Shown one piece after another: positions 12,541 through 34,580 of a stretch of 64,000 nt of DNA. The position numbers and the translations under genes are program-made. This DNA is from Buxus sempervirens (taxonomy: Eukaryota; Streptophyta; Magnoliopsida; Buxales; Buxaceae), in NCBI GenBank assembly GCA_947561395.2, contig OX387186.1, positions 7,367,888-7,431,887 on the forward strand. Reading direction: 5' to 3'. Position 1 is the first letter of the stretch; each line of letters opens with the position of its first letter. The notes beneath the pieces were generated by a model. It was given only the letters and a program-made list of their open reading frames with translations. It was not told the DNA's origin and did not search any database.

Positions 12541-14573
12541 TCAAAGTGAAGACAACTTGAACTCCTCCTTGCTGCTAAACTTATTCATGTCTGTCTTAAA
12601 AGTAGGCATAGCTTTATCAGGCAAAGACACAAGAACCTTGAATCCGTCCTTGTTCCCCTCATTCGCAGCAGAGTAAGGCAAGAAGAAGCAAAGCTCAATG
12701 CTACCAAGTAAATGCCGGGAAAGTGGCAGAACAGTGACTGGACCTCCCCAACCAAAATCAACAGTCGAATGTCCCAAGTGCCTCCAATCTGTGAATCCGC
12801 CAACTCCCTTCCCCGCAGTGATCCCTTCTGCATAATGTAGCTCTTGAAAGTCTAGAAATGACCTCACATACTCATCTGTGGTATTGCCTTTGCATTTCTT
12901 GATCAGCCCTGCTGTCTCCCAGATGGGTTGCTCCATTAGCTCTTTAGCACTAAGCTGAACATACATTGGCACACAACCATTGCCCCAGTACCCCATGGGA
13001 AGTGCCGGCTTTAGCGTTCTCCGGATGTTGACAGAATATACAAATTTCAACTTCTCATCACTTGGAATTTCAGAGGCCCTAACCCTGTTCCATTACTTAA
13101 AAAATTAATTCAAGGCAAACCAATCTGGTTCAATGACTTAACAACAAAACTCCTTTGTGTTTTTTTCCTTTTTTGGTAGGAATCGGTAAGGGGGACTGGC
13201 ACATAGCCGGGACTTACGCACACTTTTGATGAGGGTGGGAATTGATCCCAGCACGGTCTTTACCACCAGAGCAGGTGGCGCCCTCACGAAACTCTTCGTG
13301 TTTAGTCAGTTTTGAACTTTACTGTTTAGTTACCTTTTGAAAGACATATGACTTATTGGTACCTTTTCCGTAAATGACCAAATGAATTCGGAAATGATAA
13401 AATATAGATCATTTGGTTCCTGTTAATGAAAATTACAAGTCTGTTAATGAGAATTACAAGTTAGATAATTGAAATAATCTCATCAACAAACTTGTAACTT
13501 CCATTACCGGACTTATAATTCCGACCAACAGACTTGTAATTCCTATCATTAGACTTGTAATTCCCTATCAATGGACTTGTAATCCCACTCCCCTTTTAAT
13601 TCCTCATCAACCAACTTGTTCATCAACACGACTAAATGATCTTATATTTGTGAAAAAGTTATGTCCATTGGGTCTAAGTTTTCTAAAAAGTAACTGAAAA
13701 TAATTTTCCCTTTCTATGTCCAGTGCACGACCAACGACCCAAAAAAAAGCAAAGTGAGGCAGCTTACTTGGCCCGCCATATGTAAGCACCCAAAGCTTCG
13801 AACGTTGTAAAAGGCATCCCCGTCTTCTCTGTCAGGAAGGCCTTGAACAGGTCCAAACACTCATCTTTCACGGTAAAGCAGTCACGAACAATCCGGCCGG
13901 CCGGTCTATTATACGCCGAGAACTCCTTATCCAAACACAAAAACTCGTGTAAAGGCACTTCGACCCGCGGTGGGTTCCTCGGTCCGAGCAGATTCGACCT
14001 GTCCCACACGGGCTCTATCGAGTGCTGAGTCGCCCCACGAGCGAACTCGGCCATGGTGTTGAAGAACTGAGTCGCGCCCATCCCATCGCACATCGAGTGA
14101 TGAATCGAAGCGCCGAGGGTGTACCCGCCACAGGCGAAGACCGTGATTTGAATCACAAATGGGGTTTGCAACTCGTCGCCGGATTTGGGATCGGGCACCA
14201 GGTGTTCGAGGAATTCCGCAGCCGGGTCGTCCAGGTAGTTGACGGAGGCGAGCGTACAGTCAACGGTTGCACGGACGACCGGCGCACCTTTCCCGGAGCT
14301 GCAGAATAGCTCGAGGCGGGAATCTTCCGGTCGGCGTCGAAGAGTTCCGGTTAAGGGGTAGTATAAAACAAGAGCCTTACCTAAGGCTTGGGAGATCACA
14401 GTGACGGGATCGGCAGTATTGTTGTTGCTGCGGTTAACATACGCACGAACGTAACGGAAGTTGACCTGGACGTTACGGTCGTTGTCTAGATGGGAAAGAG
14501 GGAGGACATGATCGTGTTGGAAAGGAGGATCAGAGGGGAGGACGAAGTTGGTCCCAACGATCTTCACTTCCAT
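12541..14573 (-). CDS. BAHD-family acyltransferase
   Basis: Two exons on the minus strand: 13768..14573 and 12541..13084, joined in phase to give 449 aa, standard for BAHD enzymes. Family role: transfer of an acyl group from acyl-CoA to an alcohol or amine in specialised metabolism, in the cytosol. Seen: the catalytic HxxxD motif within IHHSMCDGMG (His159, Asp163), and the structural DFGWGG motif at about 378-383. The start MEVKIVGTNFVLPSDPPF is typical of the clade often labelled taxadienol acetyltransferase-like or spermidine hydroxycinnamoyltransferase-like; the substrate cannot be told from sequence. The single intron sits at the usual BAHD position after YIWRAK. Exon 1 is GC-rich compared with its flanks. 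No damage seen. Confidence 0.92.
13163..13288 (-). mobile_element. tRNA-derived SINE in the BAHD intron
   Basis: Read on the minus strand it starts near GAGGGCGCCACC, has a CTCTGGTGGTAAAG A-box-like segment and a GGGATCAATTCCC B-box-like segment, and ends in an A-rich tail. Near-identical flanks AAACTCCTTTGTGTTT (13147-13162) and AAACTCTTCGTGTTT (13289-13303) look like a target-site duplication. This matches short plant SINEs of the Au type in design. Confidence 0.6.
13425..13610. repeat. Degenerate TTGTAATTCC tandem repeat in BAHD intron
   Basis: A stretch of roughly 25-bp units built on GACTTGTAATTCC (for example near 13529, 13551 and 13577), with the inverse GGAATTACAAG form at its left edge. 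It lies in the intron, downstream of the SINE on the minus strand's 5' side. No function is evident. Confidence 0.5.
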
Positions 14574-15376: not shown

Positions 15377-15385
15377 TTTAAAATA

Positions 15386-16542
15386 GGGAAAATTTCAAAA
15401 ACATGCCACTTTTGAGAATTATTACCAGAAAGGGATCATTGCACGTTTGGGGAAATTTCAATGCCCAAAATGCCCTTGGATATAAGGGCATGTTTGCACG
15501 TGCCCCGCTCTCTCCCTCCTCTCCTCTCCTCGCCTCTCGCCCTCGTCCTGTGCGAGCGAAAAAACCCACCTTCGAAACCCTAAACCCGACGACGAACGCC
15601 GGCTAATCTTCTCAAAATCCGGCGAGCTAGGGTTCTTCCCGCGTTCTCTCCTCGTTCTCTCCTCTCCTCTCCTCTCGTCCTGTGCGGAATTTCAAAAAGT
15701 GAGAACCCTGCGAATCCCAACCCTAAACCCGAAGCCGACGACGAACGACCGGCCAATCCCTTCTTCGCCGGCGAGCTAGGGTTGTTGCCGGAGCAAGTTT
15801 GCTTCGTCTCCAAGCCCGACGAACCCCCACGAACCCCGACCATTCTCATCTTCTTCTCCAGAAGGGCGAAACCCTCTCCTTCCCCCATTCCTCTCTTCGA
15901 CGAAACCCTCTCGTTTCGTGCATTGTTTTCCTCTCCTCTCTGTTTGCACACATTGAGGAATTCGTCGTTGGAGAGCCACCGCGGTTGAAGTTTGTTGCCG
16001 TCGACGACCTGCTGTTCGTCGCCGTAGGGAGTGCTGCCGTTGGCGACCAGGTAGCTGCCGAGTGCCTCCTTTGAATTTTATTTTGCGAAATTGAATTTAA
16101 ATTTGCGCATTTGCATATTTGCACATATTTAAATGGTAATCTTCTTGTAGAAATGTCTTAAATTTCAATGATTCTGTTGTTTGCCTTAGCGAAATGTGCC
16201 CTTTCGAATTTGAATATGAGTTATTTGCATGTTTTTCGAATATTGGCTGTAGTAAATGTTTACACCATCGTTGTCCAACTATAGAAGCGAGCAAGCAGCT
16301 CCATTACACTGAAAAAAGTCCATGAATGATGTAGTGCTCTGAGTTGCGAATGTGTTCTGAAGCCATTAAATTTTTTGCTTCCACTCTAGCAATGGCCTTG
16401 TATAACCATGCTTCTTTAGAAGTTCTTCCCAAATTCAATGAGTTTGTTGGCTCTACCGATGAGACTTCCAATACTTAACAGATTGTTATTGGAGGTTTTT
16501 GATCTCTTCTATTTTAAACTGAAAAGCAAACAGCACCAAACA
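15386..16542 (+). repeat. Left terminal inverted repeat of the MULE
   Basis: Matches 33356-34571 in reverse complement, apart from a 59-bp subterminal segment found only on the right and rare substitutions (for example near 16150). The GC-rich part (about 15500-16070) contains a roughly 160-bp unit present twice: CTCGTCCTGTGCG ... CCCTAAACCCG ... GACGACGAACG ... CCGGCGAGCTAGGGTT. It has telo-box-like AAACCCTAAACCC and CTAGGGTT motifs, so it may act as promoter and 5'UTR for the inward-facing transposase. Long frames in it occur on both strands and in both repeats, and reflect base composition rather than a gene. Confidence 0.92.
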
Positions 16543-18456
16543 GATGTAGAGAGCTAGCTAGTGAGTAGTGACATAAATTTCAAACATTCACAAGTATGTT
16601 TTAGCTTACACAATTTGCATAGTATAAAAAGCAAATTAAATTTATCATTGTATTCGAACTGTAGGCATAAATCTTTGATTTTTATATTATTTGTCATTGA
16701 GTTATCCCAAGAAATGCCTTTTAGTACCTTCATCAATTCTCATATGTTTCTTGCAATGTCTTTTATTTCTGAAGGATTGCAATTCTGAATCACATTTTCA
16801 GCTAAACATTACAATGTCAAGAGATTGGTATTTTGTTGCCGAGTTGAATTCCAGGGTTTCAATTAAGTATCCATCAATCCATCCTCTTAAGAATTCCCAA
16901 TTCCAAATCCTAAGGCACCTACTTTTATTACCCAAAAAAAAAAAGTTAAAATAAATTTGGGAAATTCGATTGAGGAACTTATATAATCAAAATATGTGAA
17001 AAAATAAATTTAGAATATGGGTTTCTGCTATTTGGTAGGACTTCTATAAAGCCACCAATACATATAACCTATGCTTCGTGTCATGAAAGGGAAAACACTA
17101 TCAAAGCAGTGCTATCAAATTTGTCTTCAACACTAATAAAACAAAATGAATATTAAGAAAGCAGAGATGTAGAATGTTAACTTACTGGGTCAAACTCAAA
17201 TGTATCCCTGGTGCACAGATTCATCTCAAGTACTAGCAACTTTTTAAAATCCTCAGAAACAGACAAGAAACAAGAAGGCCTAAAATTCAATTGTCTAAAC
17301 AATTAGAAATATCAAGAAGAGATTCAATTGCCAAATGAAATAATGAAAATAAAATGAAAAAGCATCCAAGATAGAGGCGGGATCATAAAAATTAAAATGC
17401 AGCATAATGCACCTATCACCCATTATCCATGATGCTACTGATATGATCCAGAGGAGTTCAGTTTTGATCATTGCATATGTCTTGTGTTATTCGTACGGTG
17501 TGGTCTCAAGTTTTTTGTTTTTAACACTTTTCCTAGTATTTTGCCAAAGAAAAAGAAATTTGGAAAAGAGGCTGCTTTGTCCGCTTAGTAGATGTGTTTG
17601 TGGCTGCAACTTTGGACGAGCACATGGACAAGACGAGTCTTGCCAACTCATTTAACATTTGTAGAAATTGTCACACCGGGATTTCCACTGTGATGTATCT
17701 GGTCAGCCAAGCATCCTTGTAAAGAGATTCTGTTAATGTAGGAAAATGGTGTTTCAATTATTTTGTATTTTGTCATTGTTTTAGACTGGTGCCTCTGAAG
17801 GGTTGGGTTTATTGGTTATAGGGTGCTAAAGGCAATGTGAGGCCCTCTGAAATTCTTTTCCCTCAAGGTCCAGTAGTTCTTTTATTGAAGCATGAAAATC
17901 CTTATTATTGGAAATTTAATCAACGTCATTAGTTTTGTTGAAACGCTACTTGCAGTCACCTAATATGCATTAAAAATAAGTTGTAACCCACTTTCTTGCA
18001 GTTATTTTATTGTTTGTGGATTAAGTTTTGTTTACCATTGATTTTTTGAGAGAAACATTCCGCATTTCATCTGCTTAAGCCATTAAAATGTAATAGGTGT
18101 TGGTGATCCAGTTTAAATGCAGTATGTTGCATTTAATTGGTCTCTTTTTCTCTTGTTTCTATTTCTGGTAGTTGTTTTGAAGTGAAAACCTCCTACTAGG
18201 GAAATAGAATTATAATTTAACTCTACAACCTCTATTTTTTATTTACAATTTTTTTAAGTCTAAAGTCTTCCCCAACATCTGTCTTCAATTAATTTGAGGG
18301 GATTTGAGGGAAATTGACTGACATACCTGATCTGCCTATGTATTCTTGTCTTGTGAGTCATATTTATTTTAGTATGTTGTAATATTTCAAAATATATTTT
18401 TTCCATTATATTTGAATATGAAGAATTTAATATTTCAATTCGCTGGACAGTGCACA
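16543..18456 (+). other. MULE interior upstream of transposase
   Basis: AT-rich 1.9 kb between the left terminal repeat and the transposase start. It probably includes a 5'UTR intron, since an acceptor-like CGCTGGACAG sits just before the start codon. I see no coding sequence that I can identify. Confidence 0.5.
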
Positions 18457-20746
18457 ATGTCAGATGAGATTCTATTCTGTTTTTGTCACATTGGAGGACA
18501 AGTAATCACCAAGGAAGATGGGTCAATGGGGTATAGTGGGGGAAGTAGTAAGGGTGTCGATCTAAATAGCAACATGAATTATACTGAGGTCGTTGAAGCT
18601 GTTTGTCGGTTATTGAATATATCCCCGGTGAGTGTAAGTATGAAGTACTCGGTGAAGTTTGACAAGAGCGTTCTACTGGCACTCTCTGATCAAGATGCGT
18701 TATCGTACCTATTTCGCTACAACGAGGGTTGGGCCAACATTTATGTCTATAATGATGAAGGATCATCACAAGAAAGAGACACTTGTCGGAGGTAATATTC
18801 ATTAACCGTACATGGGATTATGTTTCCTCCATATTACATGTAATGATAGTCATATATTGTGTAATTTCAGGACGAGTGTACCTTTAAGTGGTCACTCTGT
18901 ACTTCCGTGCAATGACGATGAAGTAGAGGATCGGGAGACTCCGCTTCTTGAAAGTTGCACTGAAGTCAGCAGAGGTCCCCTTGTATCTAGCCTGTGGCAG
19001 GATGCAATTACTGAGGTCGACCAGATATTTAAGAGCCCTAAGGAGTTTAGAGAAGCAGTGTACAAGCATGCTATTGCCAATAGGTTTGAATATGTGATGA
19101 AAAAAAATTCTCCAGCATACATTAGTGTCCGTTGTGCAGGCACGGATTGTCCTTGGAAGGTAACGGCAAGACGTGTGAGGGATACGAGTTTTATGAGGGT
19201 GATGAAGTTTGTGAAGGAGCATAGCCACTCAGCCCAAGAGCAATTGTCTATGAAACCGGTTGTGAGAACGAAGTTCCTTTCTGGTGTGATTGAGAGGACA
19301 ATTAGGAACACTCCAAGCTACTTGCCACGACAAATTGGCAAAGACTTTTATCATGATCATGCAATGCCATTGACATATCAGCAATGTTGGAGGAGCAAGG
19401 AAAAGGCGAAACAGAGGATAGATGGTAATGTGGAGGAGTCTTATAAGTTCATCCCATGGATGTGTGAACGGCTGCAAGAGAGTAATCCTGGCACAGTGGC
19501 AAGTTGGGCAGCAAGTGAAGATGGAAAATTTAAGCAATTGTTTATTGCTTATGGATGTTCCTTGAGGGGATTTGCGATCGGTTGCAGACCACTGTTGTTC
19601 ATTGATGGAAGTCATCTCAGTGGGCCATACCAGGGCACGTTGCTTTCTGCTACAGCCCTCGATGCTGATGACGGCATGTTTCCAGTTGCCTTTGCAATTG
19701 TTAGTGCTGAGAATAATGAGGATTGGATGTGGTTTCTACAACTTCTTAAGTCATCCATAGCCTTCAGAGAGGATTTAGTCATTGTAAGTGACAGGAATCA
19801 AAGCATTATAACTGCAGTAAGTGCTACCTTTGGCGCTAGGAGCCACTCTCATTGTCTTCGACATCTGAAGGAAAACTTTAGTAAATTCGTTGGATCCTTT
19901 CATTTGAGGGAGGGAAAGAAATTTGCCTTACGGTTACTTGATGATATTGCTTACGCAAGGCTCCCTCGGGACTACAATAAGGCATTGGCTGCCATGCATG
20001 AATATGCACCTGACTTAGCTGATTGGGTGAGGAGGAATGGGCCCGAACATTGGGCCAATTCATTGTTCCCTATGAAACGGTGGGATAAGCTGAATTCAAA
20101 TTTAGCGGAATCATTCAATGCTTGGATGGTAGAAGAAAGGAAATTGCCTGTAATGCGGTTTATTGATGCACATCGAGTGAAGCTTACAGAGCTATTGATG
20201 AGGAAGCGGAGGTGTATTGACACGTGGGTGTCCAATGTTGGTGGTCGAATTGATGCCAAGATTCAGGAGAATCTCACTAGGGCATTGGGGCTGAGTGTCA
20301 TTCAATGTGGGCAACATGAATATGAAGTTAGAGGTGATGAGATATATATCATGGTGCATTTAATCCGTCGTGAGTGTACGTGCAAACAGTGGCAGATGGT
20401 GGGCATTCCTTGTGCACACGCATGTGCCGTCTTGAACTTGGTAAGGCTCAATGTATATGACTTTGTCGACCTATGCTACCACAAGGCAACGCAAGGGTTG
20501 ATATACGACGAATTGATGCATGCTGTGCCAACACATGACTTCCCCATGGTTGAGGACATCGACGTGGTTTCCATAGAAGATTCAAGTGAAACCCCATCTA
20601 TCTCGTTCCCACCAAAGACAGCAAGACGTCCAGGGCGCCCTAAGCAGAAGCGCATTGAATCACAATTCCAAGACAAGCGACAGGTTCATTGTTCCAGATG
20701 CAAGGGTGTTGGACACAACCGAGCAAGTTGCAGAGCTTCAATATAG
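18457..20746 (+). CDS. MULE transposase (MuDR type) with PB1-like N terminus
   Basis: Exons 18457..18791 and 18871..20746 join in frame to 736 aa. Residues 5-100 resemble the PB1-like domain found at the start of many plant MULE transposases. About 158-232 is the MuDR DNA-binding region (FREAVYKHAIANRFEYVMKKN, C-x4-CPWKV, HSHS). The DDE core follows, with first Asp in LLFIDGSHLSG (about 357), second in VIVSDRNQS (about 419), CLRHL, and NSNLAESFNAW holding the likely Glu. A SWIM zinc finger (CTCKQW...GIPCAHACA), an AT-hook-like RRPGRPKQKR and a C-terminal CCHC knuckle (CSRCKGVGHNRASC) end the protein. An ATG 15 codons upstream falls inside a probable 5'UTR intron, so 18457 is preferred. All catalytic and zinc residues are present: likely autonomous. 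Confidence 0.93.
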
Positions 20747-21208
20747 AGACTGGCATGGTATAATGTGCAGGTTGTTGTAGTCCATCTTACATCTATTCAT
20801 GCATCTAAGTTCTTGCTGTAGCCTGTAATTATCTTTGACTTACCGACGTCTAATTTGCAGGTTGGCGTGATGTGTTTTGCTGGGTGTCGTGAAATGTGGC
20901 AACAATTGATCAACAACCCCACGAAACCTTATTTTTATTACTGTTTTATGAAGAACTGGTTTGCCACTTAGTCGTGGGTGCCGTAACATTGTGAAACATG
21001 TTGGTTGTGAAACATATTTTACTACCAACATTGGTGGTTTATTAGTTGCATTGTGAAACATGTTTTTGTGTTTATTATGACTTTGGGTAGTTGTAATGTT
21101 GCCTTACTTTGACTGTTTGTGTTTGTAATCTTACCTGGTATGTAATTACTACTAACCTTCCTTGGTTTTAGTATATGTGCGTTATATTATTTTAGTTGCA
21201 GCTCAATA

Positions 21209-22956
21209 ATGGGTAAGAAGAAGAAGGATGTCGCGTCGGGTAGTTCTTCTAGTGGCCCATCGCGTCCTGTGAATGCCTTCCTCATATTCAGGTGATGAAG
21301 TATAAACAATTAAAGCATTGTTGTTTTACTGTCCAAATCCGAAGTAAGTGGATTTCTAATGTTATACTTACTGCTTACAGAAATGAGTACCTTGAAACAA
21401 TTCGGAAGAGTAGGTCTTCCATAAATGTCACGACGGTGAGTTGGTTAAAGTGCTATATATTAGTTGATAATGTTTACAGTGTCAATTGTAATAAATACAG
21501 TTGCATTACTATTTTGTAGATCACGCAGGAGGCGCAAGGCCTATGGAAAGCGATGGATGCTGGTGCGAAGCAGAAGTATAAAGATTTATACAATCAACGA
21601 ATGACAGAGTGGTTGGAAGCGGCCCCGACTCCAACAGGAAAAATAAGAGGAAAGGTATAACTTCATTTCTTGAACATTATGAATGTTTTGTATGTAGTTG
21701 CGTTATACTAACACATGTTTATGTAAGTGTAGGCGTCTCTGGGAACAAGATGCTCCCCAAAGCGATTTGTGCATTTCATGACTTTGCTTGACGAGGACCA
21801 GCGACGTGTAGTTGTTGAGATAGGATTTGGTTCTCTTCTCCAGATGCGCTGCACATCCCTATGTGTGAAGCTTTGCGCCTGGTTAGTAGACCACATCGAT
21901 GTACATAGTCGTAGTTTGAGGATTGGATCCTCGGTTGTCCCCATTACCCCCGCCGCTGTAAGTACCATCTTGGGCCTTAGGAGCGAAGGGCCCAAGGTTG
22001 TCATAGATGGTCCCATTGAGCAGCTTGCCCAGCTTCTTGCAAGCTTTACTTTTGATAGGCATGGCATAGCACTAAACGATATAGAGTCCAGATTGGCCAC
22101 TCTAGGTTCCGGCCATGCCTTTCAACAGGCATTTGTACTATTTCTTGTGGGATGTTTGTTATGCCCGGGTTCGAACCCACACGTGAAGCTTCATTTTCTG
22201 CATGCCGTAGCTAATATTAGTAGGGTTGGGCAGTACAATTGGGCTGCTTTTGTACTTGATGTTCTGTTTGATGAAATTGTGAAATATCGGGAGAAAAAAA
22301 AACCAACATTGGTGGATGCCTCCTATTTTTACAGGTAATTTCGTCTCTGATTTGTTTTTGGTTGTATTAGTTCAAGATGACAAGTATATGCTGAATACAC
22401 CATGACTTCCCAAATTTTATTAATGTTTCAGCTTTTCTACTATGAAGTTGTACGTGTTGGTGATATTGAATCAAGTCGTCCAACGCCACGTCTGGGGTGG
22501 TGGGACGACGATCGTGTGAAGTCACGGGAGAAGGCTGAGAAATCAGCAGGCGGGTATGGCAATGGGGAGGTAAAACATCATTTTCTATGCCCCTTCATAT
22601 TCTACATGGTCTATTGTGGATGGACTATTAATATAGTGTAGTCGATGCAGGTGGTGGCACTGACGGTGCGTGCTGAGGAAGGAGTTGGAGATGTTGATGA
22701 AGGACCTATTCCAGGGATTGATCCGGTAAGACTTGTCACCCCCTACGTTGGTCGTCGGTGTTGTTGACATGTTTTAGAATGTTCTAAATTATGAATACTT
22801 TGTTGTTAGGCATCCCAACAAGCGTTGGATGGCATGCGTGCATCGTTGCGCATGATGCAGGACGAGTATAAGATGGCTATCGCTTATGCATCCCAAATGG
22901 GTAGGCAAGATGGTATGTTCCGCACTAGACCTGGTTCCGAGAACCAAGTCTTGTAG
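21209..22956 (+). CDS. HMG box - plant mobile domain fusion gene of the MULE, one frameshift
   Basis: Proposed exons: 21209..21291, 21381..21435, 21520..21654, 21733..22334, 22432..22569, 22651..22725, 22810..22956, all GT-AG. Exons 1-3 encode an HMG box (RPVNAFLIFRNEYLETIRKS, INVTTITQEAQGLWKAM, QKYKDLYNQR). Exons 4-5 encode a plant mobile domain (PMD, aminotransferase-like), with a CLCVKLCAWLVDHID-type start and GCLLFLQLFYYE near the end. Summed exons total 1235 nt, one short of a codon multiple: at the A9 run 22294-22302 the frame is off by one, and the frame giving GGCLLFLQ|LFYYE needs one more A (or two fewer). Either a real frameshift or a homopolymer sequencing error. An alternative last exon (acceptor before 23085, stop 23099-23101) is possible. 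Protein about 411 aa if in frame. Role unknown; PMD proteins often ride in MULEs. Confidence 0.75.
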
Positions 22957-23480
22957 ATACGAGATTGTAGTAGAATTGTATAAATACTTAACATGTGCTT
23001 ACTGTTCTTGTCATTCAAAATTGGTTTCGTTTCGTCTTTGTTCTTGATAGTTACTTAAGTTTGGGTTTGTGTCTGTGAATGCAGGTCCATCTGCAAACTG
23101 AGGAAGAAGACTGGCTTCGTGAAATCTCCATCAAGTTATCATTTGGGAGTAAAGGCTGCAGGTAGCATGGTGCTCCCAAGTGAATGTTTCGTATACTATT
23201 ATATTTTTGTTTTTTTCCCCCCTTCCTACGTCATAATACCAATGAGCAAGTTTTTTTTGACATTTGTAATTCTTTCTTTAAGTACTTGAGATGTCTTGCA
23301 CATTAAAACTGAGATTCCTTTTCATGAGATATTGTATATGTATTGTGATGGGCGCTCTTTTAATTTATGGGTTCACACTTCACAGAAGGAAACTAAGAAG
23401 GCCACAGCTGTTACATGGATGGAATTATCGATGATATTTAATATATTTATCCACCACCTTGAAATTGAATAAAGAGGTCC

Positions 23481-24576
23481 ATGATGCTTCCTTTTATCTT
23501 GTTGTCCTTTTCCAAAAAAGGTATTGAACACCAATTGGGGAAACCTAAATTCAGTGTGTGTTTGTTCCCTCTGCAAGGACTAATTACAGATAATGTTAGG
23601 TTCTTGTTCCCAGCCTTCGGAGGCTTATTATTTGGATATGATATTGGTGCTACCTCCGGGGCTACTATCTCTTTGCAGGTACTGGTACATGAGATCCTTC
23701 AATGGAGTCCTTTCATTCACCTTTTGTTGAATCACCCAATTATTTGTTTACAGGATGAAAGGGAGCTTAAGAGGCAAAGAAGAAAGCAGTCTAACAGGGA
23801 ATCAGCACGACGTTCGAGGCTTAGAAAGCAGGTTAGAGATGTTTTTGGATTTTTACTTACTCATAGACAAGAAGATTAATAACTTATATTAGTTGTTCTC
23901 TGGTAGCATCTATGCTGATTCCATGAATGCCCTCAATTGCAATATGCCAATTAGTCATGTGTTTTATGTAATATGAGGGCACTTATGTAAGTTGACACAC
24001 TTTCTCACCTACTTGATCTGTCCATATGCAATCTAGCAAATGCATGGAAAATTTATATAGTTACCTATGTAATCGATTTAATTACCTGCTACCACACCCC
24101 CCAACCCCCCCGCGCCCACGTGCAACATCCTCTTTCGGTCCTTCTATTAGTATTGATCACTCAAATGTCATTAGGCTGAGTGTGAGGAACTTGCTCGTCG
24201 AGTGGAAACACTAAAAGAGGAGAACACTTCCCTCAGAGATGAACTGGGGCGTATAAAAGAGGAATGTGAGAAATTGGCATCAGAGAACACCTCTTTAACT
24301 GTAAGTTTTGCATATGGTTCTGATATATTAGTTTTTTCCCCCAAGCATGATACTGATTCCATATAGGGCTACTGTCTTAATATTCCATATTTTTCTGATG
24401 TCTGATCTTTCATATTTTGCTACTCTTTTGGTGGATTTATTTGTAACTTGATGCTTTCTATCATACATATGTAGGAGAAGCTTCAGAAGTATCAAGGACA
24501 GAACTCAGTAGAAGATGAGAGTAATGGTCACCCAGATGCTGATCCCCAAACAACAGCTAACATAGATGCAATCTAA
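23481..24576 (+). CDS. Chimeric reading frame: sugar-transporter exon joined to GBF-type bZIP exons
   Basis: Segments 23481..23678, 23754..23831, 24175..24300 and 24475..24576 join in phase 0 through GT-AG sites, giving 167 aa. The first ends [20 protein letters not shown], the first membrane segment of vacuolar glucose / xylose-proton symporter-like proteins. The second to fourth encode the basic region ([13 protein letters not shown]), a leucine zipper ([25 protein letters not shown]) and the C terminus of a G-box binding factor (GBF1-like bZIP). Neither parent is complete. The parts sit inside the MULE, so they look like transduplicated host exons, as in Pack-MULEs. The 23481 start is simply the first ATG of the frame; expression is unproven. 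It could equally be annotated as two gene fragments. Confidence 0.6.
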
Positions 24577-26398
24577 TGAGATTTATGAATGCAGGTAGCT
24601 TATAGTTCAAATAACTCAATGGCCAAGCAGTTTGGTTTTTAGAAACTGACTTCTGGTGTTATTAGTGAAAGCTCTGTTCCCTTTCCCTTCTTAATTTTCC
24701 TCTTTCAAGAGAAAGGTGTCCCACTATGATCGGTATTTCTGGAGATGGATGTGTACTTTGTTTTTACGAAAAAAGAAAAAAACCCTATGCTAATTATGTT
24801 ACAGGAAACTCTTACTAACACTAGAAGAACTAATGCCAGAAGATACTAAGTATGCATACTTAACAGATGGAAAATGGTGCAAGCAAGTGTAGTGTGCCAA
24901 ACACCAAAATTTTTTTTTTTTTTTTTAATTTTATTTGAAAATTGAAATAGAAGGCCCAAATTTCTGAGCTGGCTAAGTAGCAGATGCATTTTCATATTTC
25001 CATGCTTACATTAAAAATGGTTTAGTAAGTCTATTAAATCTTCTTTATTTAATGCATGGTTACATGGGTATAAAAGATGCAGGCTTATCTGTATTAACAG
25101 CAGATTAATGCACATTATATTTTTCATGTAGTTCAAATAGTTTAGTCTCTTATAGACCTTAAACCAAAACCCCAAAAAATGTGCCTTTTAAGGCTCAAAT
25201 CTTGTATTATTTCTATGGAATTGTAGATTGTTTAAATATCAATAAATTCCATGTTTGAGAGGCATTAAATCTTTTTATGAAATGTGGGACCTTGAACTTG
25301 CAGGTTGATCGAGGTATCTAAAGGTGCCACATGGTGGGAACTGCAATTATAAATATTGGATTTCTTTAGTCATATGGAATCTGGGATGTCTCCCAAATTT
25401 AATGAGCCAGTGCTTTACAAGTCCACCTAACAGCTACGTTTCGTCAAGCTGCCACAACAAGATATTTAAAGCAACACCTTTATCACAATAAGTGTTTTGC
25501 AATTGGTCATCTGTTGCATTTATGGAGTAATTTTTGTTGGGTTTTGGTTTTTCTTCCCAAGGGTTTTTGTACTTTTTTGTTGTTTTGTTTTTTACTCTGT
25601 TTGCTCAACCCTTGTGGGTACCTTGTACTTTTTCCCCCTTTTAATATTTACGTTTCTGAAACATTCAATCAAATGTACACATTTGTCGTACGTGGAGTTC
25701 TCCAGTCAACATCTATGGATTTCTGCAATAAGAAAATGTACAGAGTTGTGTGCTTTAAATGTCTGTATCGCCCAAGTGTGCTTTAAATGCCTGTATCTAG
25801 CTATGAGATTTAAATGCATGTATCTTCCATTATCTAGATACAGGATTCAAATGCCTGTATCTAGCTGTGTGATTTAATAGGTTACTTCACAGTCTTTGGA
25901 ACCACCGTCCGGCCAATGAATTGATTAAAGATTTTATCCAGCTGTCTGAGTCATTAGATAAACCCAGAAATTTTGTTGGAGAAGATAAATCCTTTGTTTG
26001 TTGTTTGGAAAATTGTGTTATGTATTGAGATTGTGAGATCCTAAGATAGTAAAAGAAAGGGCGTTTCTTTGTTTTTCTTTTTGGGTGGTACCTGCTGCAT
26101 TTCTGAATGGGAGAGTTTCCTTTTAAGCATCCCTTTCCCGCATGGACATGGGACACGAGCGTGGGGATCGGTTGCCTTTGCCGAAACTTCCATTCTTCCT
26201 TCGCACAAAGGGTAGCGCATAAGTGACTCGCTTGACACACTTGTATTTATAAACGAGCCGGAAGGCAGGCCCACGTGAAACACGTTGGTTGTATTAGTAG
26301 ATGCGAGCACGCAAAATATGAGGGCACTTGACCTATTTACTAAGGACTCGACCGTACTTGACATACGACTCAAGGACACCAACATAGGACTTTTAGTA
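24577..26398. other. MULE interior, probable captured 3' flank of the bZIP gene
   Basis: Starts with what is probably the 3'UTR and trailing sequence of the captured bZIP gene. Around 25750-25870 a short motif (AAATGCCTGTATCTAGCT) recurs about four times. No intact gene recognised. Confidence 0.45.
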
Positions 26399-27447
26399 GG
26401 AGGGACTCGAGCAATTTTACATGGGACGCGAGCTAAGTATATGTGGGGCTCAAGCAATTTTACATGGGACTCGAGCTAAGTATACGTGGGACTCGAGCAA
26501 ATTTACATGGGACTCGAGCTAATTTTACATGGGACTCGAGGTAAGTATACGTGGGACTCGAGCAAATTGTACATGGGAGTCGAGTTATTTTACATGGGAC
26601 TCGAGGTAAGTATACGTGGGACTCGAGCAAATTTACATGGGACTCGAGCAAATTTACATGGGAATCGAGCTATTTTACACCGGACACGAGCTAAGTATAC
26701 ATGGGACTCGAGCAAATATACATCGGACTCGAGCTAAGTATACATGGGACTCGAGCAAGTATACATTGGACTCGAGCTAAGTATACATGGGACTCGAGCA
26801 AATTTACATGGGAATCGAGCTATTTTACACCGGACACGAGCTAAGTATACATGGGACTCGAGCAAATATACATCGGACTCGAGCTAAGTATACATGGGAC
26901 TCGAGCTATTTTACACCGGACACGAGCTAAGTATACATGGGACTCGAGCAAATATACATCGGACTCGAGCTAAGTATACATGGGACTCGAGCAAATTTAT
27001 ATTGGACTCGAGCTAAGTATACATGGGACTCGAGCAAAGTTACATGGGACTCGATCTATTTTACATCGAACACGAGCAGTTGGATACATGGGACTCGAGC
27101 AAATTTACATCGGACTCGAGCTATTTTACATGGGACTCGAGCAAATTTACATCGGACTCGAGCTATTTTACATGGGACTCGAGCAAATTTACATCGGACT
27201 CGAGCTAAGTATATGTAGGACTCGGGCAATTTTACATGGGACTCGAGCAAATTTACATCGGACTCGAGCTAAGTATATGTAGGACTCGAGCAGTTTTACA
27301 TGGGACTCGAGCTACGTATACGGGAGACGACTCGACGTGGTTTACATGGGACTCGAGTTATTTTACATGGGACTCGAGCTAAGTATATGTAGGACTCGAG
27401 CTAAGTATACATGGGACTCGAGCAAATTTACATGGGACTCGAGCTAA
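26399..27447. repeat. CTCGAG-centred minisatellite
   Basis: About 1.05 kb made almost wholly of 21-22-bp units of the form TACATGGGACTCGAGCAAAT or TACATGGGACTCGAGCTAAG, roughly 48 units. Variants read ATCGGACTCGAG and GTAGGACTCGAG. They alternate into a higher-order 43-44-bp pattern in places. Long frames on both strands (GLEQIYIGLEL, GTRANLHRTRA) are by-products of the repeat and not genes. It lies inside the MULE between captured host fragments. Confidence 0.95.
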
Positions 27448-28031
27448 CGATAGGCGGGACCACGGGACTGGATCATATCCCCTTCACATAAATCTAAACA
27501 AAGTAAAAGTTCAAATATCCTGAGCCCAAGAATTTTTATCAAACTTCAACTTTTCAAATAGCCTGAACCCAAGGTCTAAGAGCCTGAGCCGAGCTCGTTT
27601 ACAGCCTTACCAAACTCAAATTTTAACCACCTTCTGTTAATACCACCCACGTTTTTTTTTTCTCCAGCTGTTCACGAAGATAACAAGGAACGAATACTGA
27701 TCTGACCTCCGCGTAATTGGACAACCCATTCTCTTACTAATCAGCCATCACAGCAGCATGCCGACCTGTTTTTCAGTCCTCGGCTCTAAGCAGTTAAATT
27801 TTGAGGGATGTGAAGAGTATCCATTTTCTTTAGAATTTACATAATGATTACAATTTTGCTATGAAGAAACCTTTCAGAAAATATAAGACCATGCTCGTTG
27901 ACAATTCATCAAATTTGTTAATAGGATTATTTTTCTGCCATTGGAATCAGCACCATCGATAAGGTCATTATGCTGTCTCCAGAGCTGTGTATATCTTCCT
28001 GCTTTTTATAGGGTTTCGGTGTGTGCTCTTC
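27448..28031. other. MULE interior between minisatellite and ABC fragment
   Basis: No gene found. A segment near 27970-28010 (CTGTCTCCAGAGCTGTGTATATCTTCCTG) is a diverged direct copy of 28090-28115, so part of the captured ABC exon is duplicated here. Confidence 0.5.
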
Positions 28032-28754
28032 TCACACTCTTGCTTCAACTCTGACGTTTGAATCAACCCCGTCAATAGGATTATTTTGCTGTCCCCATAG
28101 CTGTGCATATCTTCCTGAATTTGATAATAAAACTTCATGTGGCCCCTGTTCATGCACCTTCCCATTCTCTAGAACAATAACCTGGAAAAAAATAAATAAA
28201 TAAAAAATGGAAAATAAAGTAAACAACGAACAAGATAAGCCAATTGAAAAGAAATCATATCTGTACACACCCACACACAAGAAGCCAACCCACAACCACT
28301 GCCGCTGCAGCACCACCAACACCGCCCTCCTCCCCCCCACCAAACACAAAACACCACCCCACCACCAAAAAAGCAAAAAATTCAACCACACACCCCCACC
28401 ACCAAACCCAACCACAGAAAAAAAAAATAAAAGGAACACCAATTCCCTGCAGAATCAGTAACAAGGAAGATAATATGCAGATGGTGGTTAGTCTAGTCTA
28501 GCTTTCTCTACACCCAGTTATCAATCTACTCAGATAAGTCAAAAGCGAGAACCATCAGAAAAGAAAAAAAAACACACAAATACATTTATAACCAGTTCCC
28601 CCAGCAAGAAATGCTCACGTCATCACACTGCATAGCAGTTGTAAGCCTATGAGCAATGAATATGGATGTCCTATTATTCGCTAGGGATTTCAGTGCACTT
28701 AATATCTCTGCTTCTGTTGTACTGTCTAGAGCACTCGTAGCTTCGTCACAAAGC
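28032..28754 (-). pseudogene. Captured 3' exons of an ABCB25/ATM3-like mitochondrial ABC transporter
   Basis: Two minus-strand exons, 28619..28754 and 28032..28181, keep canonical splice sites and phase. The first reads LCDEATSALDSTTEAEILSA then IFIAHRLTTAMQCDD: Walker B/D-loop and H-loop of an ABC ATPase. The second reads VIVLENGKVHEQGPHEVLL then GRYAQLWGQQN and ends after EARV. The pair matches the C terminus of ATM3-type half transporters of the mitochondrial inner membrane. The membrane domain, Walker A and signature motif are missing, so the fragment cannot be a transporter. It is host sequence carried by the MULE. The intron is rich in A and C on the + strand. Confidence 0.8.
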
Positions 28755-30086
28755 CTAATTGGAAACAGATCAACAGGCAATATTATAATCTGCTGAAAAC
28801 AATTGTTTTCCTCTTCCTTTTGCCATCCATAAGAACTAAAATAAACCAAACTTTCAGAAAAGCCTGAAGAATCATTACAGATTTGACATGAGTAGAGGCA
28901 CAATAAAACAACAGGAAAGAACAAAAACAGAGAAACGTAAATAATCATGTTATCATGAAGCTAGTGTGATGTTAACATATGAAATGGAGAAAACAATGAA
29001 GAAGTCGATTTAAATTTTACAAGTCGAAACAATATTTGACAAAATTGAACTGCCTCAACTCAAAAGATCTCTGAATATTTCACAATATACTTAAGAAGGG
29101 CTTCAGATATTTCGAACGTGAGGAAGAAAAATCCATTCCATACACATGATTTAAGTAATGGCAGGATCTTTCACGTGACTGAACCAAAAGTTGATAATGT
29201 ACAGCTAAAATCACTAATATTGAGGGAAAAAAGTACGCATCCACATTATCATGAACGTTTAAGCATCTCAATTACCCGTACTGGATAGATCCACGCTTGC
29301 TTGCATACACAAAACAAAGTTGTAAGAAGACGAAGAGACATCGTGATCGAACAATAATGATTTCATGTTTTTTCCCACTGTATTTTAAGCATGTAATATT
29401 ATTGCAACACCGAGGATACTTTTAATTTCATTTCAAGATTTATTCTTCAATAAATATCACCATTATTCAGATGATAATACCCAATGAATCTAGCTAAAAT
29501 AATTTTAATAATTGGAATTACAAATAAAATCAAAATAAATTAGACTCCACCAATACGTATCTTGCTAAAGAATTTTAATAATTGGAATTATTTATATCAT
29601 AATACCCAATGATATACCTATAATATTTGAGTTTCAATCTCAACGACTAAAAGAATGTGGCACCCCGGAACCAGGTCGACCCATATCAGGTTTATATTGG
29701 CTCCTGGGCGCTAGCTTAGGGCCCAAAGTAATGAAAACCAACTTCAGAACTAACCAAACACACAAAATAACCTCTTAAATTTTTTTCAGAAAAACGGCTA
29801 TATAACGCCTGTAAATACGAGTATGGGCTAAGCCCTCAAACACAAATGACCACCTGATAAATACAATTTATACATCCACGCAAAATAACTAAACCATCCT
29901 AATATACAACTGTATAATCTCACTAAGTTTACATCGTCTCTCCATCTTCCCATCTACACCATCTTTGAGCTCCACAGGTTGCTTATTTGGAAATAAGCAA
30001 ATAAGCAACCTAAGGGCATTATCCAATATCTCTATAATGGTCATGTAATTTAAGGTAACATATGAGTGATAAAATTGGGAACTTAC
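28755..30086. other. MULE interior between ABC fragment and Ulp1-like gene
   Basis: Mostly AT-rich and unclassified. At 29977-30012 a hairpin-forming palindrome (AGGTTGCTTATTTG ... CAAATAAGCAACCT) occurs. On the minus strand a coding-looking tail PVELKDGVDGKMERRCKLSE ending near 29889 might be the last exon of the Ulp1-like gene, but I could not fix its splice site. Confidence 0.4.
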
Positions 30087-31680
30087 GAAGTACTTTGACA
30101 GGGCACAGACACAGGCACCACTGACCACTCCTGCACTCTCTTGTCACAGCCACGTTTAAGCTCCTCAAAGACTTTTGAAAAAAAAGTTGTCTGCAATGAA
30201 AATTGAACCATTCAATATCAATTTATATAATACATTGAAACTATATAGCTTTTTACATACCAATTTCGTTGATACAGCACGGTAATCACCAGGCCGACTC
30301 TTCGGTACCGAATCTAACACTTCGATCCGTTGGTCCTTGATGTTCAAAACAACCAAGAACCAATGGTTCCTCCTCAAGATCGGTAGGAAAACCTATCAAA
30401 TGACAATACAAGGTGTACTAGGCGTTAATAATTATGTAAATGAGAGTAATAAAATATTCGAAATTTATCATACCATATGACATCGAAGCAAACTACATCC
30501 TACAACATCTCGTGAAAATTGACTTCGTACAGCATCTTCTACAGTCACTGTTCCTTTTAGGATTGCAGCCTGTAAACCACAAGTACAATATATTAGTCCG
30601 CTGTAGTACTCCATATGCATTGATAATTAATTATTCTAAGCGTCCTAACATACAATCCTATATACGTACAGATGTGTAGGGTGTAATGTAATGACGACGG
30701 ATAGTTGATGCATGTTCCCGCGTAGATTTGACACGAGCAAGCACATACATGTGCATAACCTATTCCACAATCACCTGAGTGAGAAAACTAATCCAAGTAC
30801 CATTGTAACCTAAAACAAATGATACACTTTTCGATACAAATAACTTACCAGGTCGCTAACCCTTCGTCGTGGAAAAAGACCAAGTAGATCGAATCGAGTC
30901 GCAAAGCAATCACCGAAATCAACAAGTTTTTCCCTGCATGCGTCAATTCCACTTATAAGGGAAAAAAAAAAAAACAACAACCAACTATAAACACAATATT
31001 GAATGGTGTAAATCTGTTAATTACTCTCAATTACAGAAGATATATACTTACATCGGCGACAACCCTGGTGTCATGGCATACATCCACGCTTTTGTCTCTC
31101 GTTCAGGTAATGGGGGGAATCTATGCGTCTCGACAAAGGGTGACCTCAATTTATGTACAAGGTGCTTTACTCGCTTCCCCCTACCTCTGGGACAAGATTG
31201 CATCGTACTTGGACCCTCAGATGTACTTGCGGGTTCATCAGTTGGCACACTTCCAGCAAAAGGAGGTGATGAAAACTCTGCGTGTGCATCAACAGTGCCA
31301 TCGCCATCTGGAGGTGGTGGAGGAGGCACATCATCATTACAAGGCCAGTCGGGCTCCGCATCTGGAGGTGGTGGAGGAGCCACATCATCAGTACAACGCC
31401 AGTCAGGCTCAGCATCTGGCGGTGGTGGATGTCGATGGGAGTGGCATAAAGAGCCAGCAAAGTCGGTACAATGCCGTGTGAAGTCACGGGCAAAGCCGAT
31501 CATACGAACAATGTGACTTCGTAATACCTACGACAATGAAAACATATTGATGAAAGGAGATGTATAGAAGAATGTGTAAAATAAAAGAAATAATGCAATG
31601 GCTTGCCTTACCGGATCTATATCTGTCGGCACGTGAGTCACATCATCTGCCGCCCGCTCCTGATCCCGTGCAAAATCCAT
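30087..31680 (-). CDS. Ulp1-like (C48) cysteine protease gene of the MULE, 3' end uncertain
   Basis: Exons on the minus strand: 31612..31680, 31052..31527, 30849..30933, 30670..30759, 30474..30569, 30261..30392, 30087..30190, phases compatible. Exon 2 holds a Pro-rich repeat (PPPPDAEPDW twice), then KHLVHKLRSPF, typical of N-terminal regions of MULE Ulp1 proteins. Exon 6 carries the protease core VFLPILRRNHWFLVVLNIKD and IEVLDS, with catalytic His and Asp. The cysteine box is not canonical: in one frame of exon 7 SGACVCALSKYF aligns with the usual D-C-G-x-x-V-C box, with Ser where Cys is expected. C48 enzymes remove SUMO or related tags; this copy may be inactive. It converges on the transposase gene. 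The start is an ATG in an exon whose donor splices cleanly. Confidence 0.7.
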
Positions 31681-33355
31681 GCCTAAGGCACATAACATTC
31701 ACACACAAAATATGATTTTAAACTTTAATACAAGATGCCACCTTGCCTCATTCCTGTTTAATAGGCCTTTAAGTTACATCCATTCCATATGGAAAATGCC
31801 TGAATTACAGATGGTGAAGGGTCTCTTCTGCCATGTTTTCTGGCCACAAAATGCCTGAACTAGGTATCAAATTTGGCAAGCTATGCCTTTTTCACTATGA
31901 TTCTCTGTATTTGTTTAATTCTTATCTGGTTGTTTGTTCCTTGTAAAAAACTTTTATTTCATTTCTTTGTTTGCTTTTATGCATTTTTCATTGCTTGATA
32001 GATTTATTTCTGCAACAACTTATTGGCTGGTTGTTCATTTTAAGTTGCCTGTATTGGTAATTGAAATTTTCAGGTGATTCAAAGGAAATTAATTGATGTA
32101 GCCACACCATTAACCCCCATAGATGGTAACATTGGACCTGATGCTGTTCATCTTCTTGCTTTAAAGGAGGGTTGTGCTGCTTTTTGTTGGTTGCTTTGTT
32201 ATATATATTTGTTGAAAGTCTTTAGTCATTGGGCAACTTGTCAATTCAGATTTCTTATGATCCATATTCTTGTTTTCATTGTTTTCAATGTTATCTTTTG
32301 GTTTATTACATCTATTAATTCGTTTTGGAGATTGAGATTGGATGATAGGAGAGGTGGGTTTTGATTCAGATTCAGCAGAAAATAATGATATGAGGAGGAG
32401 GAGGTGATGGGCATAACAGCATCTACTGCTGATAAACATTTGCAGTAAGGCTTGATGCTCTGTGCAATGCAGAAAATAACTGATTTTGGCATGGCAGTAG
32501 CAGTAAGGTTTAATTCCTCTCTCTATCTTTAATGGGTTTATTTATGTTTATTTAACCAAAAAATTAGACGGTAAAACAGAGGTAATAGATACACTTATTT
32601 GTGCTAAAAGTATTTACATTTACTTAATTATATTGTGGTCAATATCTACTACAAAAATTGAGGTGCAGTCTCCTATCAAGATGTCCTGAGTCTAAGCCTG
32701 AGAACACAAAGGTGGCAATGTTAAATTCAGGCCACTTTGTGAAACTACCCCTTTGGAAATAGGGATCTGTTATCAAAGGTATCATCACCATCAGATCTTT
32801 GATTTGGCACAAAGGTTATAAAGTCTTATCTACTGCAGCTGATAGGTTCCAGGTCATGGGTCATTACCTGACACGAGGCTAATATGATGGTTGTGATCTA
32901 TGACGACAGTGAAAGTATTTGTGGTGGTTGCATGGGGAGTGGAGCATTCACCCTTAAAAGAAGGCATGATTGAAGGCTTTGTTGGTATGGAGTAAGGACT
33001 AGGTAGGCGTCGGTCATGTTCCATATTTCTTAATGCCTCACAACACACTCCAAAAGCCTATTATCATGTTTCATATTTCTTATGCAACTGACCTGATTGG
33101 GGGAAGAGGAGGACTCAAAATGTTATGTGGCTGTTAAATATACCTTTTATTTACTAAATTGTAAAGACTATGGTTGCTCTCTCTTTGCCTCTCTTATAAG
33201 ATGAGAAATTTTCATTCCTTTTGATTTGAATTGTCACAGGATATGAAGAAGATACAGCAAAAGCAAAAGTTCAGTTTTTGGTCCAAATGAGGAGAAAAAA
33301 CCAGCATCTCAAGCAACCCTGAAAAGCCTGCACAAGAGATATCCGAAGATACTAT
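31681..33355. other. MULE interior upstream of the Ulp1-like gene
   Basis: Probably contains the 5'UTR and leader intron of the Ulp1-like gene on the minus strand. On + an exon-like piece occurs at 32074-32170 (see separate entry). Otherwise AT-rich with no recognised gene. Confidence 0.45.
32074..32170 (+). other. Isolated exon-like segment, unidentified
   Basis: After an acceptor TTTTCAG the + frame reads VIQRKLIDVATPLTPIDGN then IGPDAVHLLALKE, followed by a GT. The composition and framing look like a host exon, but I do not recognise the protein. Given the other captured exons, it may be a further transduplicated fragment. Confidence 0.3.
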
Positions 33356-34571
33356 TGTTTGGTGCTGTTTGCTTTTCAGTTTAAAATAGAAGAGATCAAA
33401 AACCTCCAATAACAATCTGTTAAGTATTGGAAGTCTCATCGGTAGAGCCAACAAACTCATTGAATTTGGGAAGAACTTCTAAAGAAGCATGGTTATACAA
33501 GGCCATTGCTAGAGTGGAAGCAAAAAATTTAATGGCTTCAGAACACATTCGCAACTCAGAGCACTACATCATTCATGGACTTTTTTCAGTGTAATGGAGC
33601 TGCTTGCTCGCTTCTATAGTTGGACAACGATGGTGTAAACATTTACTACAGCCAATATTCGAAAAACATGCAAATAACTCATATTCAAATTCGAAAGGGC
33701 ACATTTCGCTAAGGCAAACAACAGAATCATTGAAATTTAAGACATTGCTACAAGAAGATTACCATTTAAATATGTGCAAATATGCAAATGCGCAAATTTA
33801 AATTCAATTTCGCAAAATAAAATTCAAAGGAGGCACTCGGCAGCTACCTGGTCGCCAACGGCAGCACTCCCTACGGCGACGAACAGCAGGTCGTCGACGG
33901 CAACAAACTTCAACCGCGGTGGCTCTCCAACGACGAATTCCTCAATGTGTGCAAACAGAGAGGAGAGGAAAACAATGCACGAAACGAGAGGGTTTCGTCG
34001 AAGAGAGGAATGGGGGAAGGAGAGGGTTTCGCCCTTCTGGAGAAGAAGATGAGAATGGTCGGGGTTCGTGGGGGTTCGTCGGGCTTGGAGACGAAGCAAA
34101 CTTGCTCCGGCAACAACCCTAGCTCGCCGGCGAAGAAGGGATTGGCCGGTCGTTCGTCGTCGGCTTCGGGTTTAGGGTTGGGATTCGCAGGGTTCTCACT
34201 TTTTGAAATTCCGCACAGGACGAGAGGAGAGGAGAGGAGAGAACGAGGAGAGAACGCGGGAAGAACCCTAGCTCGCCGGATTTTGAGAAGATTAGCCGGC
34301 GTTCGTCGTCGGGTTTAGGGTTTCGAAGGTGGGTTTTTTCGCTCGCACAGGACGAGGGCGAGAGGCGAGGAGAGGAGAGGAGGGAGAGAGCGGGGCACGT
34401 GCAAACATGCCCTTATATCCAAGGGCATTTTGGGCATTGAAATTTCCCCAAACGTGCAATGATCCCTTTCTGGTAATAATTCTCAAAAGTGGCATGTTTT
34501 TGAAATTTTGCATCTTTATGGCATGTTTTTGTAATAATCGCTGTAAAGTGGCATGTTTTTGAAATTTTCCC
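33356..34571 (-). repeat. Right terminal inverted repeat of the MULE
   Basis: Inverted copy of 15386-16542. It has 59 extra bp near the tip, so the AAAATTTCAAAAACATGCC subterminal motif occurs more than once (about 34481-34571), where the left end has one copy. It faces the Ulp1-like gene and probably supplies its promoter. Confidence 0.92.
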
Positions 34572-34580
34572 TTTAAAATA

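Follow-up and report, generated by a model that had tools for sequence, protein, structure and literature searches.

The sequence analyzed here, referred to as the window, is a 64-kb stretch of the Buxus sempervirens genome (GCA_947561395.2; 676.5 Mb, 247 contigs), spanning positions 7,367,888 to 7,431,887 of the forward strand of contig OX387186.1 (C8). It carries a 19,186-bp transposable element (15386 to 34571) that lies between two exact copies of TTTAAAATA, its 9-bp target-site duplication (TSD; left copy, 15377 to 15385; right copy, 34572 to 34580). The element is a somewhat damaged copy of a large transposase-bearing family of the Mutator superfamily, whose members preserve successive stages in the acquisition of host gene pieces.

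Structure and classification of the element

The left terminal inverted repeat (TIR; 15386 to 16542, plus strand) and the right TIR (33356 to 34571, minus strand) pair over 15381 to 16542 and 33356 to 34517, and 1 of 1,154 positions differs in their end-to-end alignment. The right TIR is longer by 59 terminal bases, as it contains three repeats of a terminal unit of about 30 bp (34482 to 34568). The extra outer repeat is absent from the left end of the window copy and is present at both ends of four other copies (E2, E3, E5, and E6, located below).

The transposase gene (18457 to 20746, plus strand) has two predicted exons (18457 to 18791 and 18871 to 20746) and an open frame of 736 amino acids in the window copy; this and the other gene models were predicted from splice signals. 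In Pfam, the product of exon 2 matched the MULE catalytic domain (PF10551, E value of 1.1e-16), the Mutator DNA-binding domain DBD_Tnp_Mut (PF03108, 1.5e-16), and SWIM (PF04434, 6.5e-7), all above the cut-offs. These three domains mark a Mutator transposase, and a TSD of 9 to 11 bp (9/9 here) marks the superfamily; long TIRs are found in most of its members, though not in all. Thus, the exact duplication, the near-identical TIRs of 1.16 and 1.22 kb, the complete transposase, and the Mutator assignment proposed in a first-pass annotation of the window all held, and the divergence between the two TIRs that it had suggested measuring is the single mismatch.

A large family of paired copies

A search with the TIR gave at least 50 matches in the genome (best 40 of 240 candidates). 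Among them were 17 left-right pairs 4.4 to 25 kb apart, 13 of which were separated by 19 to 25 kb, so further copies with this terminal repeat, for which the first-pass annotation had suggested a search, do exist. Because TIR matches recur in this paired arrangement across the 676-Mb genome, the shared structure is not due to chance. All scored candidates also matched when the transposase (40 of 315), the gene for a high-mobility-group box and plant mobile domain (HMG-PMD; 40 of 113), the GRF-zinc-finger gene (40 of 112), and the Ulp1 region (40 of 1480) were used as queries.

Nine copies were studied end to end: E1 in the window, E2 (C4, 20.78 Mb), E3 (C12, 18.37 Mb), E4 (C10, 24.0 Mb), E5 (C3, 43.9 Mb), E6 (C1, 49.3 Mb), E7 (C15, 16.47 Mb), E8 (C14, 15.80 Mb), and E9 (C15, 5.95 Mb). 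The TSD is exact (9/9) in E1, E2, E5, E6, E7, and E9 (by eye in E9) and imperfect in E8 (8/9) and E3 (7/9); E4 has an altered left end, and no TSD was seen there. The transposase frame is open in five of the seven young copies translated (E1, E2, E3, E4, and E6), with a stop at codon 704 in E5 and a frameshift in E7.

When the flanks of E5 were joined, they aligned unbroken across the junction at C6, 54.105 Mb (83%), and at 12 other sites (75 to 80%; 17 of 17 candidates scored). At the level of the unbroken alignment, these sites support insertion with a 9-bp duplication for this sister copy. The possibility that the two TIRs are an assembly artifact was rejected, since near-identical long copies are spread over different contigs and the duplicated 9-mers differ among those read.

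Host gene pieces and the order of their capture

Three pieces of host genes lie between the TIRs of the window copy. The first is a sugar-transporter-like exon region (23460 to 23752, plus strand; approximate outer limits). Its label is weak, with Pfam E values of 0.086 in one search and 0.021 in another, both below the cut-off, and the name is in part an assumption. The second (23753 to 25176, plus strand) comprises bZIP exons, presumably of the G-box-factor type, together with introns and 3' sequence, and takes the place of 848 bp of element sequence. The third (27479 to 29230, minus strand) derives from an ABCB25-like mitochondrial ABC transporter gene, of which it holds two exons with introns, and takes the place of 250 bp. 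An open frame at 32074 to 32175 was suspected to be a further captured piece and was dropped after no Pfam match was obtained.

The distribution of these pieces was determined by searching the genome with 23460 to 24640 (26 of 26 candidates scored). The whole query was found in 10 elements and part of it, including bZIP DNA, in 3 more; the bZIP part alone occurred at 1 non-element locus, another 9 places matched over nothing but the first 293 bases, and the remaining three weak, short matches were homologues. The ABCB piece was found in 9 elements and at 1 non-element locus (10 of 10 candidates scored). Overall, the sugar-transporter-like piece occurs in 22 places, the bZIP piece in 13 elements, and the ABCB piece in 9. 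The cargo sets are nested, since all 9 elements with ABCB DNA have bZIP DNA and all 13 with bZIP DNA have DNA of the sugar-transporter-like piece. Among the best 40 of 113 PMD matches, six of the seven at 97% identity lie in elements that have the sugar-transporter-like piece and are free of bZIP DNA, and none of the 18 at 93 to 95% has a partner in the sugar/bZIP search.

Copies predating the later captures have survived. The state before the bZIP capture is represented by elements at C4, 54.35 Mb (L048), and C15, 9.98 Mb (L049); L048 has 848 bp of element DNA where E3 has 1,875 bp of the bZIP locus. Two donor pieces make up the E3 insert; they meet at CCAAGCCC, and about 740 bp that separate them in the donor are absent. 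The state before the ABCB capture is represented by E7, which holds 250 bp at the place occupied by about 1.74 kb in the ABCB-bearing copies. Thus, the nested sets and these states show the order of the captures: the sugar-transporter-like exon came first, then the bZIP exons, and then the ABCB exons. As copies in each state occur at many places, the lineage multiplied after each step.

Because the pre-capture copies hold other element sequence at the same positions, the bZIP and ABCB captures replaced internal DNA and were not additions. The junction homologies read from the alignments are 1 to 2 bp at three of the joints and 6 bp and 8 bp at the other two. Replacement of this kind is as expected of repair with template switching. 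Cargo has also been lost: E5 and the elements at C22, 14.6 Mb, and C3, 45.99 Mb, are without parts of the bZIP piece. In the latter two (C22, 14.616 Mb, and C3, 45.997 Mb), the internal gap is identical (query positions 645 to 879), and they probably derive from one deleted copy that moved again, since the gap is shared.

The host exons reported in the first-pass annotation are therefore real, and high-identity loci for the bZIP and ABCB pieces exist elsewhere in the genome, as in Pack-MULEs (Mutator-like elements [MULEs] with host gene fragments between their TIRs). That annotation had also proposed that a single element combines autonomous machinery with Pack-MULE-type capture. The combination is genuine; it is not a one-off, as captures in this family were made serially and then co-amplified.

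Donor loci and a predicted chimeric frame

The likely bZIP donor lies at C10, 26.67 Mb (98.8% identity). Between cargo and donor, none of 307 coding bases and 7 of 587 noncoding bases differ (P = 0.10 for the difference between the classes). Upstream of the captured exons, this locus has a 97-codon open stretch that resembles the exon expected to come before them in a bZIP gene. For the ABCB exons, the closest match of the encoded peptide is ABC transporter B family member 25, mitochondrial (E value of 1e-38). At 92% identity or above, these exons occur in elements and at C1, 71.87 Mb, only; other matches reach at most 53% (95 candidates scored). As no other non-element locus of its kind was found among these candidates, the C1 locus is taken to be the likely donor. 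The element aligns with the donor stretches (7.0 kb for bZIP and 5.6 kb for ABCB) over the cargo only, and no other element sequence is present in them.

In the window copy, the sugar-transporter-like exon is predicted to be spliced in frame to three bZIP exons (23481 to 24577, plus strand), running from an ATG at 23481 to the bZIP stop and giving a 167-amino-acid chimeric protein. This frame is open in 8 of the 10 copies with the full piece, the window copy included, and one of these 8 has an altered splice site. The chance of in-frame joining is about one in three, and the chimeric protein is a prediction.

Proposed mechanism of serial capture

Taken together, we consider it probable (about 0.84) that a transposase-encoding, TIR-bearing Mutator family captured host gene pieces serially, the last two by internal replacement, in a lineage that continued to multiply. 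At each step, template switching during the repair of a break inside an element would have copied in host gene DNA, and similar error-prone repair may have produced the three deletions found in the window copy (see below). The transposase would then have mobilized both cargo-bearing and damaged copies by cut-and-paste transposition, and methylation may now keep the family quiet.

A very different history, in which ordinary MULEs acquired host DNA by unrelated break repair after they had become immobile and were later copied by segmental duplication, is highly improbable. Microhomology-associated filler DNA does arise in transposition-independent repair, and the accessible text of PMC8277862, which reports a median microhomology of 2 bp in animal cases, argues for gap filling that is mostly independent of transposition and invokes it for most single-copy animal Pack-TIRs. 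However, the cargo-bearing copies sit on many contigs, flanked in those read by different duplicated 9-mers, and therefore moved after capture; in addition, E5 has related uninterrupted sites.

Several points weigh against serial capture in a mobile lineage. Filler-DNA repair outside transposition would give the same junctions. The joined flanks (200 + 200 bp) of the window insertion match only both flanks themselves in this assembly (2 of 2 candidates), where the flank is single copy; hence, the check for an empty site proposed in the first-pass annotation, run within this assembly, yielded none. The seventh PMD match at 97%, at C4, 55.11 Mb, has no partner in the sugar/bZIP search; therefore, either the sugar-transporter-like layer is uneven or that copy has lost the piece. 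A donor for that piece was not found among the 26 candidates, all scored, the nearest being 76 to 84% identical over short stretches. Visual inspection of open stretches of at least 30 codons in the roughly 5.6 kb preceding the ABCB donor revealed no additional ABCB exon, and this locus might itself be a partial copy. The Ulp1-like gene has a dN/dS of 0.63, which is not significantly below 1 (P = 0.07; E3 versus the older copy described below). Finally, activity, splicing, and the gene models rest on prediction.

Accessory genes and damage in the window copy

The fuller gene set is found in sister copies of about 22 kb, which carry one transposase gene and three accessory genes. In E3, the HMG-PMD protein (411 amino acids) contains an HMG box (E value of 7e-12) and a plant mobile domain (1.6e-12), and the 164-amino-acid minus-strand GRF protein contains GRF zinc fingers in two stretches (9e-25). 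The Ulp1-like protease, also on the minus strand, matches PF02902 (1.4e-14) with its His, Asp, and Cys exons present, and its best solved-structure match is sentrin-specific protease 2 (3.3e-9). The GRF and Ulp1 frames were translated in E3 and in an older copy at C6, 16.09 Mb, only.

In the window copy, the HMG-PMD gene (21209 to 22956, plus strand; seven predicted exons) is broken near 22293, where it is out of frame because the length of an A-run differs from that in E2 to E6; in these five copies, the 411-amino-acid frame is open. E7 and the older C6 copy share the A-run difference of the window copy, and both also have stops further upstream in this gene.

Three deletions relative to E3 have further reduced the window copy. 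About 450 bp were lost at 24838 to 24841, a deletion not found in E2 to E7. About 1,025 bp were lost at 26108 to 26113, leaving only the first codons (remnant first exon at 26108 to 26193, minus strand) of the gene for the two GRF zinc fingers. A third deletion, of about 920 bp at 29341 to 29346, removed the exon with the catalytic motif DDCG from the Ulp1-like (Peptidase C48) gene (30085 to 31680, approximate limits, minus strand), of which seven of eight predicted exons remain, the His and Asp exon among them. Junction homologies at the three deletions, read from aligned sequences, are 4, 6, and 3 bp, respectively. The deleted segments are kept in E2 to E7, and E8 keeps the second and third, its own large deletion spanning the first. 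Among the nine ABCB-bearing elements, the window element is the only one absent from the GRF matches listed (best 40 of 112).

Thus, only the transposase remains open among the element genes of the window copy, and its description as intact-looking in the first-pass annotation does not hold. Of the two accessory genes claimed there, the Ulp1-like gene was correctly recognized, although the family has three and the GRF gene is almost wholly deleted here. Given the three deletions, the broken accessory frame, and the existence of fuller sisters, the window copy may have been mobilized in trans by complete sister copies, with a transposase that is open only through youth. We regard this as a serious but less probable alternative, since all 736 codons of the frame are open, its identity with at least 13 other copies rounds to 100% (best 40 of 315 candidates), and the deletions may postdate the insertion.

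E8 (L024-L025), at 13.1 kb, is a more strongly reduced derivative. It is without the transposase exons beyond the first, the HMG-PMD gene, and all three host pieces; its deletion joint has a 4-bp overlap, and the derivative is still flanked by its 8/9 TSD.

Selection, recent amplification, and probable silencing

Selection was assessed in a single pair, E3 versus the older C6 copy, which are 95% identical over the transposase and PMD region, with Fisher's test. The dN/dS was 0.31 for the transposase (P = 5.5e-7), 0.37 for HMG-PMD (P = 7e-4), and 0.18 for GRF (P = 1e-4). These values mix constrained and free periods, because the older copy has stops. As two of the three accessory genes are under purifying selection, the accessory genes most likely aid transposition or escape from silencing.

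Mutations were counted in the young copies E1, E2, E3, E4, E6, and E7. The count excluded E5, which has an internal deletion, and E8, which has a large one, together with the TIRs, the tandem array, indels, and sites at which more than one copy differed. Pairwise differences among the six copies were 0.16 to 0.37% over 12.3 kb. Substitution rates in plants are about 7e-9 to 1.3e-8 per site per year, which places the young copies at roughly 0.06 to 0.3 million years. Of the 92 single-copy changes, 51 were C>T or G>A. These fell in CG (17), CHG (23), and CHH (11) contexts, compared with 5.3, 7.4, and 38.3 expected from the base make-up of the sequence (chi-square P = 1e-17). Because of this CG/CHG deamination signature in the pooled young copies, the family is probably silenced, and a recent burst was probably followed by silencing through methylation. 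The window copy contributed 8 of the 92 changes, 3 of them C>T or G>A, which is too few to show the signature alone. Hence, the element was rightly described as recent in the first-pass annotation, and the suggestion that it is perhaps active is disfavored for the family.

E9 (L047; C15, 5,950,647 to 5,955,092) is a 4,446-bp, near-perfect palindrome of two right-hand ends (corresponding to window 32337 to 34571) with its own 9-bp duplication. By analogy with Mu killer of maize, in which a hairpin RNA acts in this way, such a fold-back copy could yield hairpin RNA against the TIRs of the family.

The minisatellite and a possible anti-silencing role

The minisatellite noted in the first-pass annotation was confirmed at 26402 to 27444 (plus strand; 21/43-bp units); the start codon of the GRF gene lies about 0.2 kb downstream of it, in the direction of that gene. 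The array holds 37 occurrences of CTCGAG, and the remainder of the window element has none. The motif GGGACTCGAG (at most one mismatch) was counted 43 times in the window copy, including one occurrence at 26150 that lies outside the array; there are 45 to 62 occurrences in E2 to E8, 37 in the older copy, and none in E9 or the donors.

Whether the array is merely an unstable repeat without a role is an even call. Tandem arrays arise by slippage, which would fit motif counts that range from 43 to 62 across E1 to E8. On the other hand, the young copies and the older C6 copy share the position of the array, and CTCGAG is confined to it in the window element. The array is present and varies between copies; its parallel with the tandem-repeat targets in Arabidopsis VANDALs is one of arrangement only, and protein binding to it is putative. 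By this analogy, the family might have an anti-silencing kit of new composition, in which the HMG-PMD protein, the GRF protein, or both bind the CTCGAG array while the Ulp1-like protease deSUMOylates silencing factors, and the resulting open state might let very large copies continue to move and gather host exons; we consider this unlikely. Under such a scheme, one outcome, which we regard as similarly doubtful, would be the production within the element of a novel sugar-transporter/bZIP protein joined in frame.

Neighboring genes

An acyltransferase gene (12544 to 14573, minus strand; PF02458), which we take to be of the BAHD type, starts about 0.8 kb from the left end of the element, so the insertion lies in its upstream region. 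The window also contains a gene for a magnesium-chelatase subunit ChlI-like protein (8695 to 9783, minus strand; PF01078) and two long open frames on the plus strand, a DYW-type PPR gene (39804 to 41696) and a bromodomain-BET gene (60413 to 62113).

Relation to known elements and significance

The comparisons below refer to the accessible portions of the papers cited. Ulp1 genes in reverse orientation to the transposase, PMD-transposase fusions, and host fragments in MULEs are already known. As in Pack-MULE and Pack-TYPE elements (PMC8903248, PMC6431247), Mutator TIRs here surround host exons and introns. Pack-TYPE elements, however, are defined as lacking a transposase, and this family keeps one. 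According to PMC6431247, the Pack-MULEs described by Jiang et al. 2004 were all within the length of the 7-kb full-length element.

Ulp1-like genes are carried by Kaonashi (KI) MULEs and by MULEs of grapevine, melon, and rice (PMC2528002, PMC13317346), and in Kaonashi the gene is in reverse orientation to the transposase, as it is here. Kaonashi is a non-TIR MULE, whereas the present family has TIRs of 1.2 kb and, besides host cargo, GRF and HMG-PMD genes. Long grapevine MULEs of 16 to 18 kb are known, and Mutavine-18 (16.2 kb; TIRs of 230 to 263 bp; ULP-1 region listed) is the nearest in plan and size among the described elements compared. Transduplicated host exons and introns, some common to several copies, are likewise found in grapevine class II families, for which the accessible text describes no ordered capture series (PMC2528002).

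In the PMD-carrying MULEs of PMC5418596, the plant mobile domain is fused to the transposase, whereas here it belongs to a separate gene and is fused to an HMG box; the authors speculate on an anti-silencing role for MULE-borne PMDs. Arabidopsis VANDALs with VANC (PMC5735166, PMC10398659) share with this family accessory genes and fast-varying noncoding tandem repeats, and VANC proteins bind motifs arranged as such repeats. VANDALs are non-TIR elements whose VANC proteins have DUF1985/DUF287, whereas this family has TIRs and a PMD with an HMG box instead. DUF1985 gave an E value of 0.19 on the window PMD exon and was unlisted for the E3 protein at an E value of 1.

In the literature searched, which lacked most subscription papers, neither the combination of HMG-PMD, GRF, and Ulp1 genes in one TIR-bearing MULE nor ordered captures with surviving pre-capture states in transposase-bearing copies was found. 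Moreover, the Pack-TYPE pipeline of PMC8903248, as described in its accessible text, files any transposase-matching element as autonomous; therefore, cargo in autonomous elements goes uncounted there.

The accessory gene set and the repeat array offer a possible second system, besides Arabidopsis VANDALs, for tests of transposon anti-silencing. Exon capture by transposons is usually viewed as an end state of elements that are unable to move themselves. Here, states before and after capture, with zero, one, two, and three cargo pieces, coexist in one genome together with likely donors for two of them, which lets the order, junctions, and sizes of the captures be read directly. They show that captures took the place of internal sequence while the lineage retained its transposase and continued to multiply.

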